Part shown: positions 5,586 through 8,560 of the stretch, piece after piece
Numbering within the stretch: the first letter of the stretch is position 1
Layout of the letters: every line of letters begins with the position of its first letter
Virus record (IMG/VR): IMGVR_UViG_3300023180_000308
Coordinates: 1-28,162 of that record
Source: a virus
DNA length: 28,162 nt
Direction: 5' to 3' (one strand)
Notes under the pieces: model-generated
Seen by the model: only the letters and a program-made list of their open reading frames with translations
Databases searched by the model: none
Told to the model about the DNA's origin: nothing
Translations under genes and position numbers: made by a program

Positions 5586-6038
5586 ATGATTGAATGTCCC
5601 CAATGCACCCCGGCGCAACAGTACGTCCTAGAACAACTGCAAGTTAAAGCGGATATCACAGACCCTGTTGCCCTGGCGGTGATCTTGGGTAACATTCAAC
5701 AGGAAAGTAATTTCCGTCCTAACGTCTGCGAAGGTGGCAAGGTTGTCCCGTATGACCGCTGCCTTCGTGGAGGTTATGGTTTGATCCAATGGACATCGCC
5801 TAGACGTTATCATGGTCTAGGCAGATTCTGTAAAAGATACGGGTGTGATCCAAGTAGTTTGAAAGGTCAAACCCGTTACATGATAAACGAGTTACGCTTC
5901 CGTGCTGAACTCGCTGAATTTCAAACACCTTATCAACAACTCCCCTATTACATGAACTCAGCCTACTACTGGCTGGGCTGGGGGATTAAAGGTAATAGGG
6001 AGAGATATGCTTATTCTTTCCTAGACAAACTTAAATGA
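5586..6038 (+). CDS. Tail-lysozyme-type murein hydrolase, probable endolysin
   Basis: The protein has 150 aa. Residues 28-80 carry [19 protein letters not shown] followed by [20 protein letters not shown]. This pairing (catalytic Glu40 in the QQESNF helix, then a GYGLIQW segment) is typical of the Phage_lysozyme2 family, which cuts the glycan strands of peptidoglycan. There is no signal peptide, so a holin or virion delivery would be needed. A CxxC pair sits at the N-terminus (Cys4, Cys7). T7 uses an amidase (gp3.5) encoded elsewhere. Here the hydrolase is in the late operon, and its stop overlaps the psbA start (ATGA). It could be the lysis enzyme or a virion hydrolase replacing the activity T7 carries on gp16. 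Confidence 0.8.
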
Positions 6039-7111
6039 CTGCTTCAATTGCTATCCAGCAGAAGAATGCCTGGGACCAGTTTTGTAACTGGGTAACTTCT
6101 ACTAACAACCGTCTTTATGTTGGTTGGTTCGGCGTGCTCATGATACCATGTCTGCTCGCTGCTACCACCTGTTTCATCCTGGCGTTCATCGCCGCACCAC
6201 CTGTTGACATTGATGGAATCCGCGAACCTGTCGCAGGCTCCCTGTTGTATGGAAACAACATCATATCAGGAGCCGTCGTTCCGAGCAGCAATGCCATCGG
6301 ACTACACTTCTACCCAATTTGGGAAGCTAATTCACTTGATGAATGGCTGTACAACGGGGGTCCATTCCAACTCACCGTATTCCACTTCCTCATTGGTATC
6401 TATGCTTACATGGGACGTGAGTGGGAACTTAGCTATCGACTAGGGATGCGTCCCTGGATTTTTGTTGCTTACTCTGCTCCAGTCGCTGCAGCTACTGCAG
6501 TGTTCCTTATCTACCCCTTCGGTCAAGGATCTTTCTCTGATGCAATGCCACTCGGTATCTCCGGCACGTTTAATTACATGCTGGTCTTCCAAGCTGAACA
6601 CAATATTCTCATGCACCCGTTCCATATGTTGGGAGTTGCTGGTGTATTTGGGGGTAGCCTGTTTAGTGCTATGCACGGTAGCCTTGTCACGTCTTCTCTT
6701 GTTCGGGAAACGACTGAGGACATGTCTCAAAACTATGGCTATAAGTTTGGACAAGAAGAAGAAACGTATAACATTGTAGCGGCTCATGGCTACTTCGGAC
6801 GACTTATTTTCCAGTACGCATCCTTTAACAATAGCCGTAGCCTTCACTTTTTTCTGGCTGCTTGGCCTGTTGTCGGTATTTGGTTTGCTGCTCTGGGTGT
6901 GTCTACAATGGCTTTTAATCTTAACGGTTTCAATTTTAACCAGTCCCTACTGGATAGTCAGGGGCGTGTTGTGCGTACTTGGGCTGACATCCTTAACCAA
7001 GCTAACCTTGGATTTGAAGTCATGCACGAGCGTAATGCGCACAACTTTCCGCTAGACCTCGCTGCTGCAGACGTAACTCCTGTTGCTCTTACTGCACCTG
7101 CTGTAGGCTAA
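6035..7111 (+). CDS. psbA: Photosystem II reaction-centre protein D1
   Basis: The D1 protein (358 aa) binds P680, pheophytin, QB and the Mn cluster. It is full length, with no intron or frameshift. Numbering is one less than the standard scheme. TyrZ is Tyr160, the P680 ligand is His197, and the Mn ligands are Asp169, Glu188, His331, Glu332, His336, Asp341 and the Ala343 carboxylate freed by C-terminal processing (LDLA followed by a 15-residue tail). Residue 129 (standard 130, in [13 protein letters not shown]) is Glu, the form usual in high-light D1:2 copies. The start overlaps the hydrolase stop (ATGA). It replaces photodamaged host D1 so that light energy continues to feed phage replication. 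The stop codon lies inside the RNA structure described downstream. Confidence 0.98.
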
Positions 7112-7118
7112 TCTCCGT

Positions 7119-7186
7119 CCGTTCATCCCCTATAAAGGGACGCATGAAGCTTGATCATGGAACGGGGGTCAAGCACTTGGAGATTA
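7119..7186 (+). ncRNA. Candidate glutamine-II ('Downstream-peptide') riboswitch
   Basis: A three-helix junction is visible. P1 is 7119-7124 with 7160-7165 (CCGTTC/GAACGG). P2 is 7126-7129 with 7137-7140 (TCCC/GGGA, loop CTATAAA). P3 is 7143-7147 with 7155-7159 (CATGA/TCATG). The P3 loop bases 7149-7154 (GCTTGA) pair perfectly with 7169-7174 (TCAAGC), forming a 6-bp pseudoknot just before the GGAG (7179-7182) of the 20-codon ORF at 7190. The conserved words CGTTCATCC, GGGACG and GGAACG around the junction match my memory of the glnA/Downstream-peptide glutamine aptamers, found in cyanobacteria and cyanophages before very short ORFs. Ligand binding would stabilise the pseudoknot and limit ribosome access. 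Ligand and direction of control are inferred. Confidence 0.8.
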
Positions 7187-7189
7187 ACA

Positions 7190-7252
7190 ATGGCTATTAA
7201 AGTCACCTACAAGTATCGCGGCGTTTCTTACACTAAAATGGTAGTCCGTTAA
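7190..7252 (+). CDS. 20-aa riboswitch-controlled peptide (YRGVSY type)
   Basis: ATG at 7190 is preceded by GGAG at 7179-7182, 7 bases upstream, which is good spacing. The ORF encodes MAIKVTYKYRGVSYTKMVVR and a TAA stop. The TYKYRGVSY segment resembles the short 'TYRGVxY' proteins (DUF4278-like) common in cyanobacteria and their phages. Short ORFs directly downstream are the defining context of Downstream-peptide RNAs. The peptide is basic (five Lys/Arg, no acidic residue) and has no signal or membrane segment. Its function is unknown; it may be a regulatory peptide or a leader whose translation affects the downstream capsid message. Confidence 0.65.
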   Translation: MAIKVTYKYRGVSYTKMVVR

Positions 7253-7405
7253 AGCGGCATTGGGAGGTGCAAACCCTCCCTTACCTATTGGCATTGGCCT
7301 CTACGGAGATACCCTTTGCCGTCTAGACGGTGGGATAGACCACAAAAATAAAACAAAAAATTTCCAAACGTTTGGGAGCAAGTCTATTACTCTTACTCCT
7401 TAAAA
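7253..7405 (+). promoter_or_regulatory. Leader before the capsid gene with inverted repeats; possible late promoter
   Basis: No gene is visible here. It holds a 6-bp hairpin (7262-7267 with 7275-7280, loop TGCAAAC), a direct repeat GGCATTGG (7256-7263 and 7290-7297), and two perfect 12-bp palindromes: CCGTCTAGACGG (7319-7330) and CCAAACGTTTGG (7364-7375). An A-rich run separates the palindromes. In T7 the strongest phage-RNA-polymerase promoter lies just before gene 10, so a promoter or an RNA-processing site is expected, but I see no recognised consensus. There is no clear Shine-Dalgarno before the capsid ATG at 7406. Confidence 0.35.
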
Positions 7406-8560
7406 ATGGCACAACAGAATTCCAATGAGCCTCTTGCTGATCTTACGCAACTAGGCGCATCTAACTTTGGCTCGGACACCCGCGCCCTGTATCTCAAGCT
7501 TTTTAGCGGCGAGATGTTCAAAGGCTTCCAGCAGAACACGATCGCTCGTGATCTGGTTATGAAGCGGACTCTCCGTAATGGTAAGTCCATGCAGTTCATC
7601 TACACCGGTCGTACCAAGGCGGAATATCATACGCCTGGCAACAGCATCCTCGGTAACTCCGACGGTGCACCTCCGGTGGCTGAGAAGACCATCACCGTTG
7701 ACGACCTGCTGATCAGCTCGGCATTCGTCTACGAGCTGGATGAAGTTCTCGCTCATTACGACCTGCGTAGCGAAATCTCTCGCAAGATTGGTTATGCTCT
7801 CGCAGAAAAGTATGACCGTCTGATCTTCCGTGCGATCACCAACGGTGCTCGTAACGCTTCTCCTGTGTCTGCCTCTGGCTTCGTTGAGCCTGGCGGTACT
7901 CAGATCCGCGTCGGCTCTAACGCTGAGTTCTCTGACGCTTATGATGACGCTGCTCTGGTGGCTGCATTCTATGATGCTGCTGCTGCTCTTGATGAGAAGG
8001 GCGTGTCCCAAGATGGTCGTTGCGCTGTCCTGACCCCTCGTCAGTACTACGCTCTGCTTCAAGGTATCAACAGCAACATCCTGATCAACCGTGACGTTCA
8101 GGGTACCGCCCTGCAGTCCGGTAAGGGTCTGATGAGCATTGCTGGTATTGAAATCTTCAAGTCTACCAACATTCCTTTCTTCAGCAACTACGGTACCAAG
8201 TTCGGTACCTCCGGTGGTACTACCGATACCGGTGTTGCTTCTCCTGGTAACCTGGGTAGCTTCATTGATTCCGCTATGGAAGACGAAGCAGCCGTTGCCG
8301 CCGGTTCCATCGGTGCTCACAACGAGTACGGTGTTGGTACCGAGTTTGCTAACAGCTGTGGTCTGATCTTCCAGCGCGAAGCTGCTGGTTGTGTTGAGGC
8401 TATTGGTCCTCAAGTTCAAGTCACCAGCGGTGACACCTCCATTATCTACCAGGGTGATGTGATCGTCGGTAAGCTCGCCATGGGCGCTGATTACCTGAAC
8501 CCCGCTGCTTGCGTTGAACTGTTTGCTGGTACTGCTACCAAGCCTGCCGCATTCGCCTGA
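7406..8560 (+). CDS. Major capsid protein, T7 gp10 family
   Basis: The 384-aa protein builds the icosahedral shell (HK97 fold in this family). Features typical of podoviral gp10 include an N-terminal region with a long arm (LYLKLFSGEMFKGFQQNTIA), TLRNGKSMQFIYTGRTKAEYHTPG, the KTITVDDLLISSAFVYELDE segment, and YDLRSEISRKIGYALAEKYDRLIF, the spine-helix region. Its codon use, rich in C-ending and T-ending strong codons, suggests high expression. A long isolated leader stands upstream and an intrinsic terminator directly downstream, consistent with an abundant transcript. No frameshifted minor capsid extension (T7 10B) is evident before the terminator. Confidence 0.95.
   Translation: MAQQNSNEPLADLTQLGASNFGSDTRALYLKLFSGEMFKGFQQNTIARDLVMKRTLRNGKSMQFIYTGRTKAEYHTPGNSILGNSDGAPPVAEKTITVDDLLISSAFVYELDEVLAHYDLRSEISRKIGYALAEKYDRLIFRAITNGARNASPVSASGFVEPGGTQIRVGSNAEFSDAYDDAALVAAFYDAAAALDEKGVSQDGRCAVLTPRQYYALLQGINSNILINRDVQGTALQSGKGLMSIAGIEIFKSTNIPFFSNYGTKFGTSGGTTDTGVASPGNLGSFIDSAMEDEAAVAAGSIGAHNEYGVGTEFANSCGLIFQREAAGCVEAIGPQVQVTSGDTSIIYQGDVIVGKLAMGADYLNPAACVELFAGTATKPAAFA

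Follow-up and report, generated by a model that had tools for sequence, protein, structure and literature searches.

A short structured RNA between the photosynthesis gene psbA and the major capsid gene of a cyanophage raises two questions: to which class it belongs, and which gene it regulates. We analyzed the whole of IMG/VR record IMGVR_UViG_3300023180_000308, positions 1 to 28,162 (28,162 nucleotides), referred to here as the window. The order of features in the window is psbA (6035-7111, with matches to Photo_RC and phrog_182), the RNA element, a 20-codon ORF (7190-7252), a conserved capsid leader and the major capsid gene (7406-8560, a Gp10A-like match). A preliminary description of this DNA had proposed a glutamine riboswitch of the Downstream-peptide type, built as three stems around a junction with a loop pseudoknot, that would tie psbA and late gene expression to host glutamine.

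Identity and distribution of the element

A scan of the whole window against Rfam gave a single match, Glutamine-II (RF01704), at 7117-7174 on the plus strand, with 56.5 bits and an E value of 2.3e-11. The curated cut-off of this family, formerly named Downstream-peptide, is 33 bits. When 6900-7400 was scanned at a loose threshold, the only other match was Glutamine-I/glnA (RF01739), whose 15.1 bits fall under its cut-off of 35. The covariance search thus bears out both the position and the class that had been proposed, Downstream-peptide and not glnA. We consider it quite probable that 7117-7174 is a genuine Glutamine-II riboswitch lying between phage late-operon genes and controlling translation of the micropeptide that follows. 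The element in the window has no ORF within it and is an ordinary member of its class. Glutamine binding by the phage copy is predicted from the aptamer match and the ligand-site residues.

Isolated phages were reached through DNA similarity to the window and scanned with Rfam. Ten T7-like isolates carry the element between psbA and the capsid gene, together with the micropeptide: P-SSP2, P-SSP3, P-SSP7, P-SSP10, 9515-10a, NATL2A-133, NATL1A-7, S-TIP37, KBS-P-1A and P-SCSP-R27W. S-CBP1 and S-CBP4 also carry the element, and it is absent from phage S-B28. A covariance model made from eight sequences, including the window, was then run over 80 capsid and 80 psbA loci of viral contigs. The element was present in 53 of the 61 metagenomic capsid loci having at least 500 nt upstream. 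Four of the eight loci without it have a psbA-capsid gap of only about 165 nt; the remaining four retain 510-647 nt of upstream sequence, in which psbA was not found on the stretch available. The preliminary description had drawn attention to the location of the element, with psbA on one side and gene 10 on the other; this location is correct and broadly conserved. Our literature search found no paper describing a Glutamine-II element in T7-like phages. From these comparisons the window copy is a sound example of a class already known, and its location is conserved and, as far as the literature searched shows, undescribed.

Divergent riboswitch-like elements (CGGGTACGCCTCGGGCTGGAACGCG) with an altered 3′ half were seen ahead of the same kind of micropeptide at L141:4431-4491 and L156:4207-4267. 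These may be decayed, or a variant with altered specificity.

Anatomy of the aptamer

In the crystal structure of a Glutamine-II RNA, 6QN3, the helices P1, PK and P2 stack coaxially, G18 contacts the ligand and C19 pairs over a long range with G41 (PMC6698751). We mapped the residue numbering of this structure (PMC6698751) onto the window (Table 1). The ligand contacts C1, G2, G18, C19, C39 and G40 fall on 7120, 7121, 7142, 7143, 7163 and 7164, with the required base at each, and the supporting residues A33, G35, A37, A38, G41 and G42 are likewise present.

Table 1. Positions of the riboswitch, its helices and neighboring features in the window, and of ORF-bearing aptamers in related loci
Feature	Position	Strand	Evidence
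P0 5′ strand TAATCTCC, including psbA stop codon TAA (7109-7111)	7109-7116	+	Perfect complement of 7179-7186, -8.9 kcal/mol
Glutamine-II riboswitch aptamer (RF01704)	7117-7174	+	cmscan 56.5 bits; orthologues in isolated cyanophages and metagenomic loci
PK 5′ strand CGUUC (C1-C5), pairs with 7160-7164	7120-7124	+	Invariant in 41-row alignment
P1 hairpin, 7126-7129 with 7137-7140, loop 7130-7136	7126-7140	+	ORF occupies the same position in sister phages
Linking strand C17-G18-C19	7141-7143	+	Invariant in 41-row alignment; roles from PMC6698751
P2 5′ strand, pairs with 7167-7174	7149-7156	+	Compensatory changes
A33 (7157), G35 (7159), PK 3′ strand GAACG (7160-7164), G41 (7165), G42 (7166)	7157-7166	+	Invariant except 7158, 41-row alignment
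P2 3′ strand	7167-7174	+	Compensatory changes, as for P2 5′ strand
P0 3′ strand GGAGATTA, including micropeptide Shine-Dalgarno GGAG (7179-7182)	7179-7186	+	Pairs with 7109-7116 in pseudoknot-free predicted fold
Micropeptide ORF MAIKVTYKYRGVSYTKMVVR, likely regulated gene	7190-7252	+	YRG micropeptide behind nearly every element; codon-position signature
ORF-bearing Glutamine-II aptamers	L004:2684-2848; L174-L253; L023, L044, L049, L059, L071, L075, L076, L109, L113, L118, L133, L137, L147, L162		

The fold was assessed in an alignment of 41 distinct relatives. PK, P1 and P2 together have 97.6% paired cells, and their covariation score was matched by 0 of 500 shuffles. Both sides have changed in all three scored pairs of P1 (99.2% paired) and in six of the eight pairs of P2 (95.1% paired). 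The PK helix and the long-range pair C19:G41, which is 7143:7165 in the window, are invariant in 41 of 41 and so carry no covariation; their support is this invariance together with the known structure. CGTTC and GAACG occur in 112 of 112 distinct elements, a collection for which both motifs were required.

These helices redraw the proposed junction. Its stem 7126-7129/7137-7140 is P1 of the crystal structure. The stem 7119-7124/7160-7165 holds the PK helix in 7120-7124/7160-7164, and its outer pair 7119:7165 is wrong, since G7165 is G41 and pairs with C7143 (C19). What had been called a loop pseudoknot, 7149-7154/7169-7174, is a real pairing under the wrong name: it supplies P2 with all but two of its eight pairs. 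The third stem, 7143-7147/7155-7159, does not hold up. It shows no covariation in the relatives, its score being reached by 273 of 500 shuffles, and we rejected it also because it would take up C19, A33 and G35, to which the crystal structure assigns different roles (PMC6698751). The stem is present in the predicted window fold computed without the pseudoknot and could at most be an alternative pairing, perhaps of the ligand-free state. A Glutamine-I-type third stem replacing P2 was rejected as well, as the proposed stem lacks covariation. That the element is a Glutamine-I (glnA) riboswitch, or the three-way junction as first drawn, is scarcely credible: pseudoknot-blind prediction does return the junction for the window, but the glnA model stays far under its cut-off, and it is P2, not the third stem, that is strongly supported.

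Another possible explanation is that the RNA is a fixed structural element, for processing or stability, left over from a host riboswitch and no longer sensing glutamine. Since the function of the phage copies is predicted from sequence, this reading has some room, yet we find it highly improbable. A mere stem would have no use for the ligand-site residues, but these do not vary among the 41 aligned relatives, and they are retained even where an ORF splits the aptamer halves (see below).

The likely regulated gene

The 20-codon ORF that had been noted downstream is present and encodes the motif YRG-x-x-Y, which is conserved in the relatives. In cyanobacteria, the Downstream-peptide motif precedes short ORFs of conserved amino-acid sequence (PMC2864571). 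Among 106 distinct ORFs, selected for containing YRG, the core of the micropeptide is [LY]-x-Y-R-G-[VIT]-x-Y-x-K, and the differences by codon position (1017/492/2723) are a coding signature. The window micropeptide has no Pfam match and one weak PHROGs match; its longer relatives touch DUF4278 under the cut-off of that family.

In nearly all loci tabulated, the start codon of the YRG ORF lies within about 20 nt of the element, usually 10-19 nt past the model match. The distance from the element to psbA ranges from 5 nt to more than 1 kb, and the distance to the capsid gene from 219 to 1446 nt, with up to four genes between (P-SSP10, 9515-10a). Because the micropeptide stays close behind the element while the other two distances vary freely, the comparison points to the YRG micropeptide, and neither psbA nor the capsid gene, as the likely regulated gene. 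Glutamine control of psbA or capsid expression, as the preliminary description had it, is not supported, as the element lies 3′ of psbA and can be separated from the capsid gene by other genes.

A broader version of that proposal would have the element govern everything downstream in the late segment, from the capsid gene onwards, or stabilize the 3′ end of psbA. Its location in the late operon, often directly behind psbA, would suit such a role. We nevertheless judge it quite improbable given the varying distances and intervening genes, the near-fixed spacing seen for the micropeptide only, and the fact that the capsid gene owns a conserved structured leader, also where the riboswitch is absent.

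The leader of the capsid gene

The capsid leader itself (window 7262-7345) looks like a second structured RNA, with no match in Rfam. It contains a GGGAGG/CCTCCC hairpin (7262-7280), a short stem with a UACG loop (7299-7308) in which three pairs have undergone compensatory change, a palindrome, CCGTCTAGACGG (7319-7330), and GTGG-GATAGA-CCAC, up to 7343. A structured leader is also seen in loci without the riboswitch (L031, L048). The GGGAGG hairpin resembles a tRNA T-arm. No tRNA was found in the capsid leader of the window; NATL1A-7 has a tRNA-Gly (TCC) in its capsid leader (L012:3422-3492), where other phages have the GGGAGG hairpin.

Expression platform and direction of the switch

Glutamine-II RNAs are reported to bind glutamine, with a Kd of 190 uM by calorimetry and in the mM range by probing, and the one upstream of gifB is an ON switch, probably at the level of translation (PMC6698751). 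In the phage, L-glutamine would stabilize PK and P2 and thereby change access to the micropeptide start region. In the window, the Shine-Dalgarno region can pair with 7109-7116. This 8-bp complement, P0, was overlooked in the preliminary description. Its 3′ strand spans the micropeptide Shine-Dalgarno and its 5′ strand the psbA stop codon, so that termination at psbA may also open P0. The 5′ flank pairs better with native than with foreign start regions in 22 of 27 leader groups (Wilcoxon p = 4e-4), with only 2 of the 27 individually reaching p < 0.05 for flank complementarity. We regard P0 pairing of the flank with the start region as suggestive. The largest group of relatives (37 distinct leaders and 13 of the sister type) has the start region GUACGAA, complementary to UUCGUAC, which includes C1. 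Since this pairing takes C1 of the ligand site, it competes with PK.

The switch logic is most likely ON with glutamine, a reading we hold with moderate confidence because a start-region pairing that competes with PK favors it and it agrees with the reported gifB switch. A nitrogen-replete infected cell would then be one in which the phage makes the YRG peptide. In a nested-fold thermodynamic model of 76 elements, start-region accessibility showed no net change with versus without the folded aptamer (0.425 vs 0.428), so the choice of ON rather than OFF rests mainly on the literature. An OFF switch would have glutamine fold PK and P2 and in this way keep P0 closed over the Shine-Dalgarno, and the peptide would be made only when glutamine is scarce. 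P0 encloses the aptamer, is on paper compatible with PK, P1 and P2, and is contained in the predicted window fold; modeled accessibility is also no higher upon binding. We nonetheless consider an OFF switch unlikely, as the experimentally studied Glutamine-II switch, that of gifB, is ON (PMC6698751), and the GUACGAA start region, by pairing with C1, would compete rather than cooperate with PK.

In P-SSP10-like leaders, an alternative pairing between the 3′ strand of P2 and the Shine-Dalgarno region can be picked out by eye; it was negligible in ensembles and was rejected. In about 50 distinct leaders (among them L004, L005, L042 and L075), the start region before the micropeptide, GUACGAAC, lacks a Shine-Dalgarno and shows complementarity to UUCGUAC on the 5′ side of the aptamer.

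ORF-bearing aptamers in sister phages

Some loci matched the model in the 3′ half only. Their 5′ half lies 160-190 nt upstream, with one ORF between the halves. This ORF has 53-60 codons and belongs to phrog_628. Its start codon is in the P1 5′ strand (TTCATCT-ATG), and its stop falls within the P1 3′ strand and conserved linker or immediately past them (CATAGACGCA-TGA). A protein-similarity search, blind to the RNA, returned 80 loci; both aptamer halves flanked 77 of the 79 ORFs examined, and the remaining two loci are cut by a contig end.

The P1 hairpin had an energy of -6.83 kcal/mol over 68 distinct ORF sequences, compared to -5.15 ± 0.21 with shuffled partners (0/200), and -4.35 compared to -2.19 ± 0.24 under synonymous strand recoding of 31 distinct cases (0/200). 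The Ile before Asp-Ala uses the pair-keeping codon ATA in 31 of 31 cases, compared to 20 of 250 for Ile at other sites. The ORF is coding, as its differences by codon position (10132/6514/28507) show. Related sequences are among those counted, and the cases are not independent of one another, but several distinct P1 sequences recur, namely UCUAUG/CAUAGA, UCCAUG/UAUGGA, UCCAAU/AUUGGA and UCUUCU/AGAAGA. On these comparisons, P1 pairing in the ORF-bearing form is maintained through codon choice.

Among isolates, S-SBP1 carries the ORF-bearing form, with the inner ORF deposited as SSBP1_gp32; its element scores 19.6 bits in Rfam, under the cut-off. In T4-like cyanophages, relatives of phrog_628 are free-standing genes, and the aptamer was absent from the three flanks checked. 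Among cellular genomes, the P1 ORF was found on three contigs only, in MAGs labeled non-cyanobacterial. One of these contigs, at 33,438 bases, has the same size as a viral contig carrying the P1 ORF.

The ORF-bearing architecture itself is well supported by sequence and appears to be a new variant of the Glutamine-II class, seen in relatives and not in the window. A literature search found no paper describing an ORF inside a riboswitch aptamer. We think it probable that this form is widespread, with a phrog_628 gene in the P1 loop and P1, PK and P2 kept, and that one aptamer could drive two opposite outputs. The folded aptamer would bury the start codon of the inner ORF, and ribosomes on that ORF would unfold the aptamer. 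The inner ORF would then probably be the second, opposite output: low glutamine would favor the inner ORF and high glutamine the YRG micropeptide. We infer both the continued sensing of glutamine by the split aptamer and this two-way control.

P1 also holds inserts without an ORF, of 44 nt (with a shared AGGACAAG core) or 65 nt (L056:1143-1236, L020:4481-4574, L061:805-919, L094:4242-4356). In the structured P1 insert of L056, Rfam gave no second known RNA, only Glutamine-II (43.3 bits) being above its cut-off. A group I intron (109.6 bits) lies downstream of an ORF-bearing riboswitch locus at L249:890-1120.

Comparison with known systems

The phage copy shares with cyanobacterial Glutamine-II RNAs (RF01704) the sequence, the PK-P1-P2 fold, the ligand-site residues and a short conserved ORF directly downstream, and its YRG peptide is like the downstream peptides of the hosts in size and position. 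It differs in being intercistronic in a T7-like late operon, directly behind psbA, and in the ORF that P1 carries in sister phages. P-SSP7, which carries the phage version, infects Prochlorococcus MED4. Yfr6 of Prochlorococcus is a 244-nt RNA with a 33-codon ORF behind a Downstream-peptide motif (PMC1242208, PMC2518516), and the RNA antisense to it, Yfr14, increases in the early phase of phage infection (PMC2518516). As in the phage, a tiny conserved peptide follows the motif in Yfr6 of MED4; the likeness drawn here is one of arrangement, and Yfr6 is a host gene with its own transcription start.

Melnitz, a phage of OM43, likewise encodes a glutamine riboswitch, but that one is described as glnA-like (Glutamine-I) and tmRNA-linked, in a myophage of a heterotroph (PMC9004378). 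The manA and wcaG RNAs are candidate riboswitches of cyanophages too, although they are other motifs and belong to T4-like phages (PMC2864571). Group I introns are known to carry ORFs in peripheral loops, and the ORF-bearing relatives likewise lodge a protein gene in an outer loop of a structured RNA. Here, in contrast, the RNA is a metabolite aptamer of about 58 nt, and the ORF begins inside a paired stem and ends within that stem or immediately beyond it.

Significance

Standard annotation misses the ORF-bearing form, as the S-SBP1 score illustrates. This form poses the question of how ribosome passage through the aptamer affects ligand sensing. With this element, abundant marine cyanophages would have a sensor of nitrogen status within their late operon. 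Its likely target is a tiny, mostly unannotated peptide, and control of the phage by the nitrogen state of the host would be testable in the isolates P-SSP7, S-TIP37 and S-SBP1.
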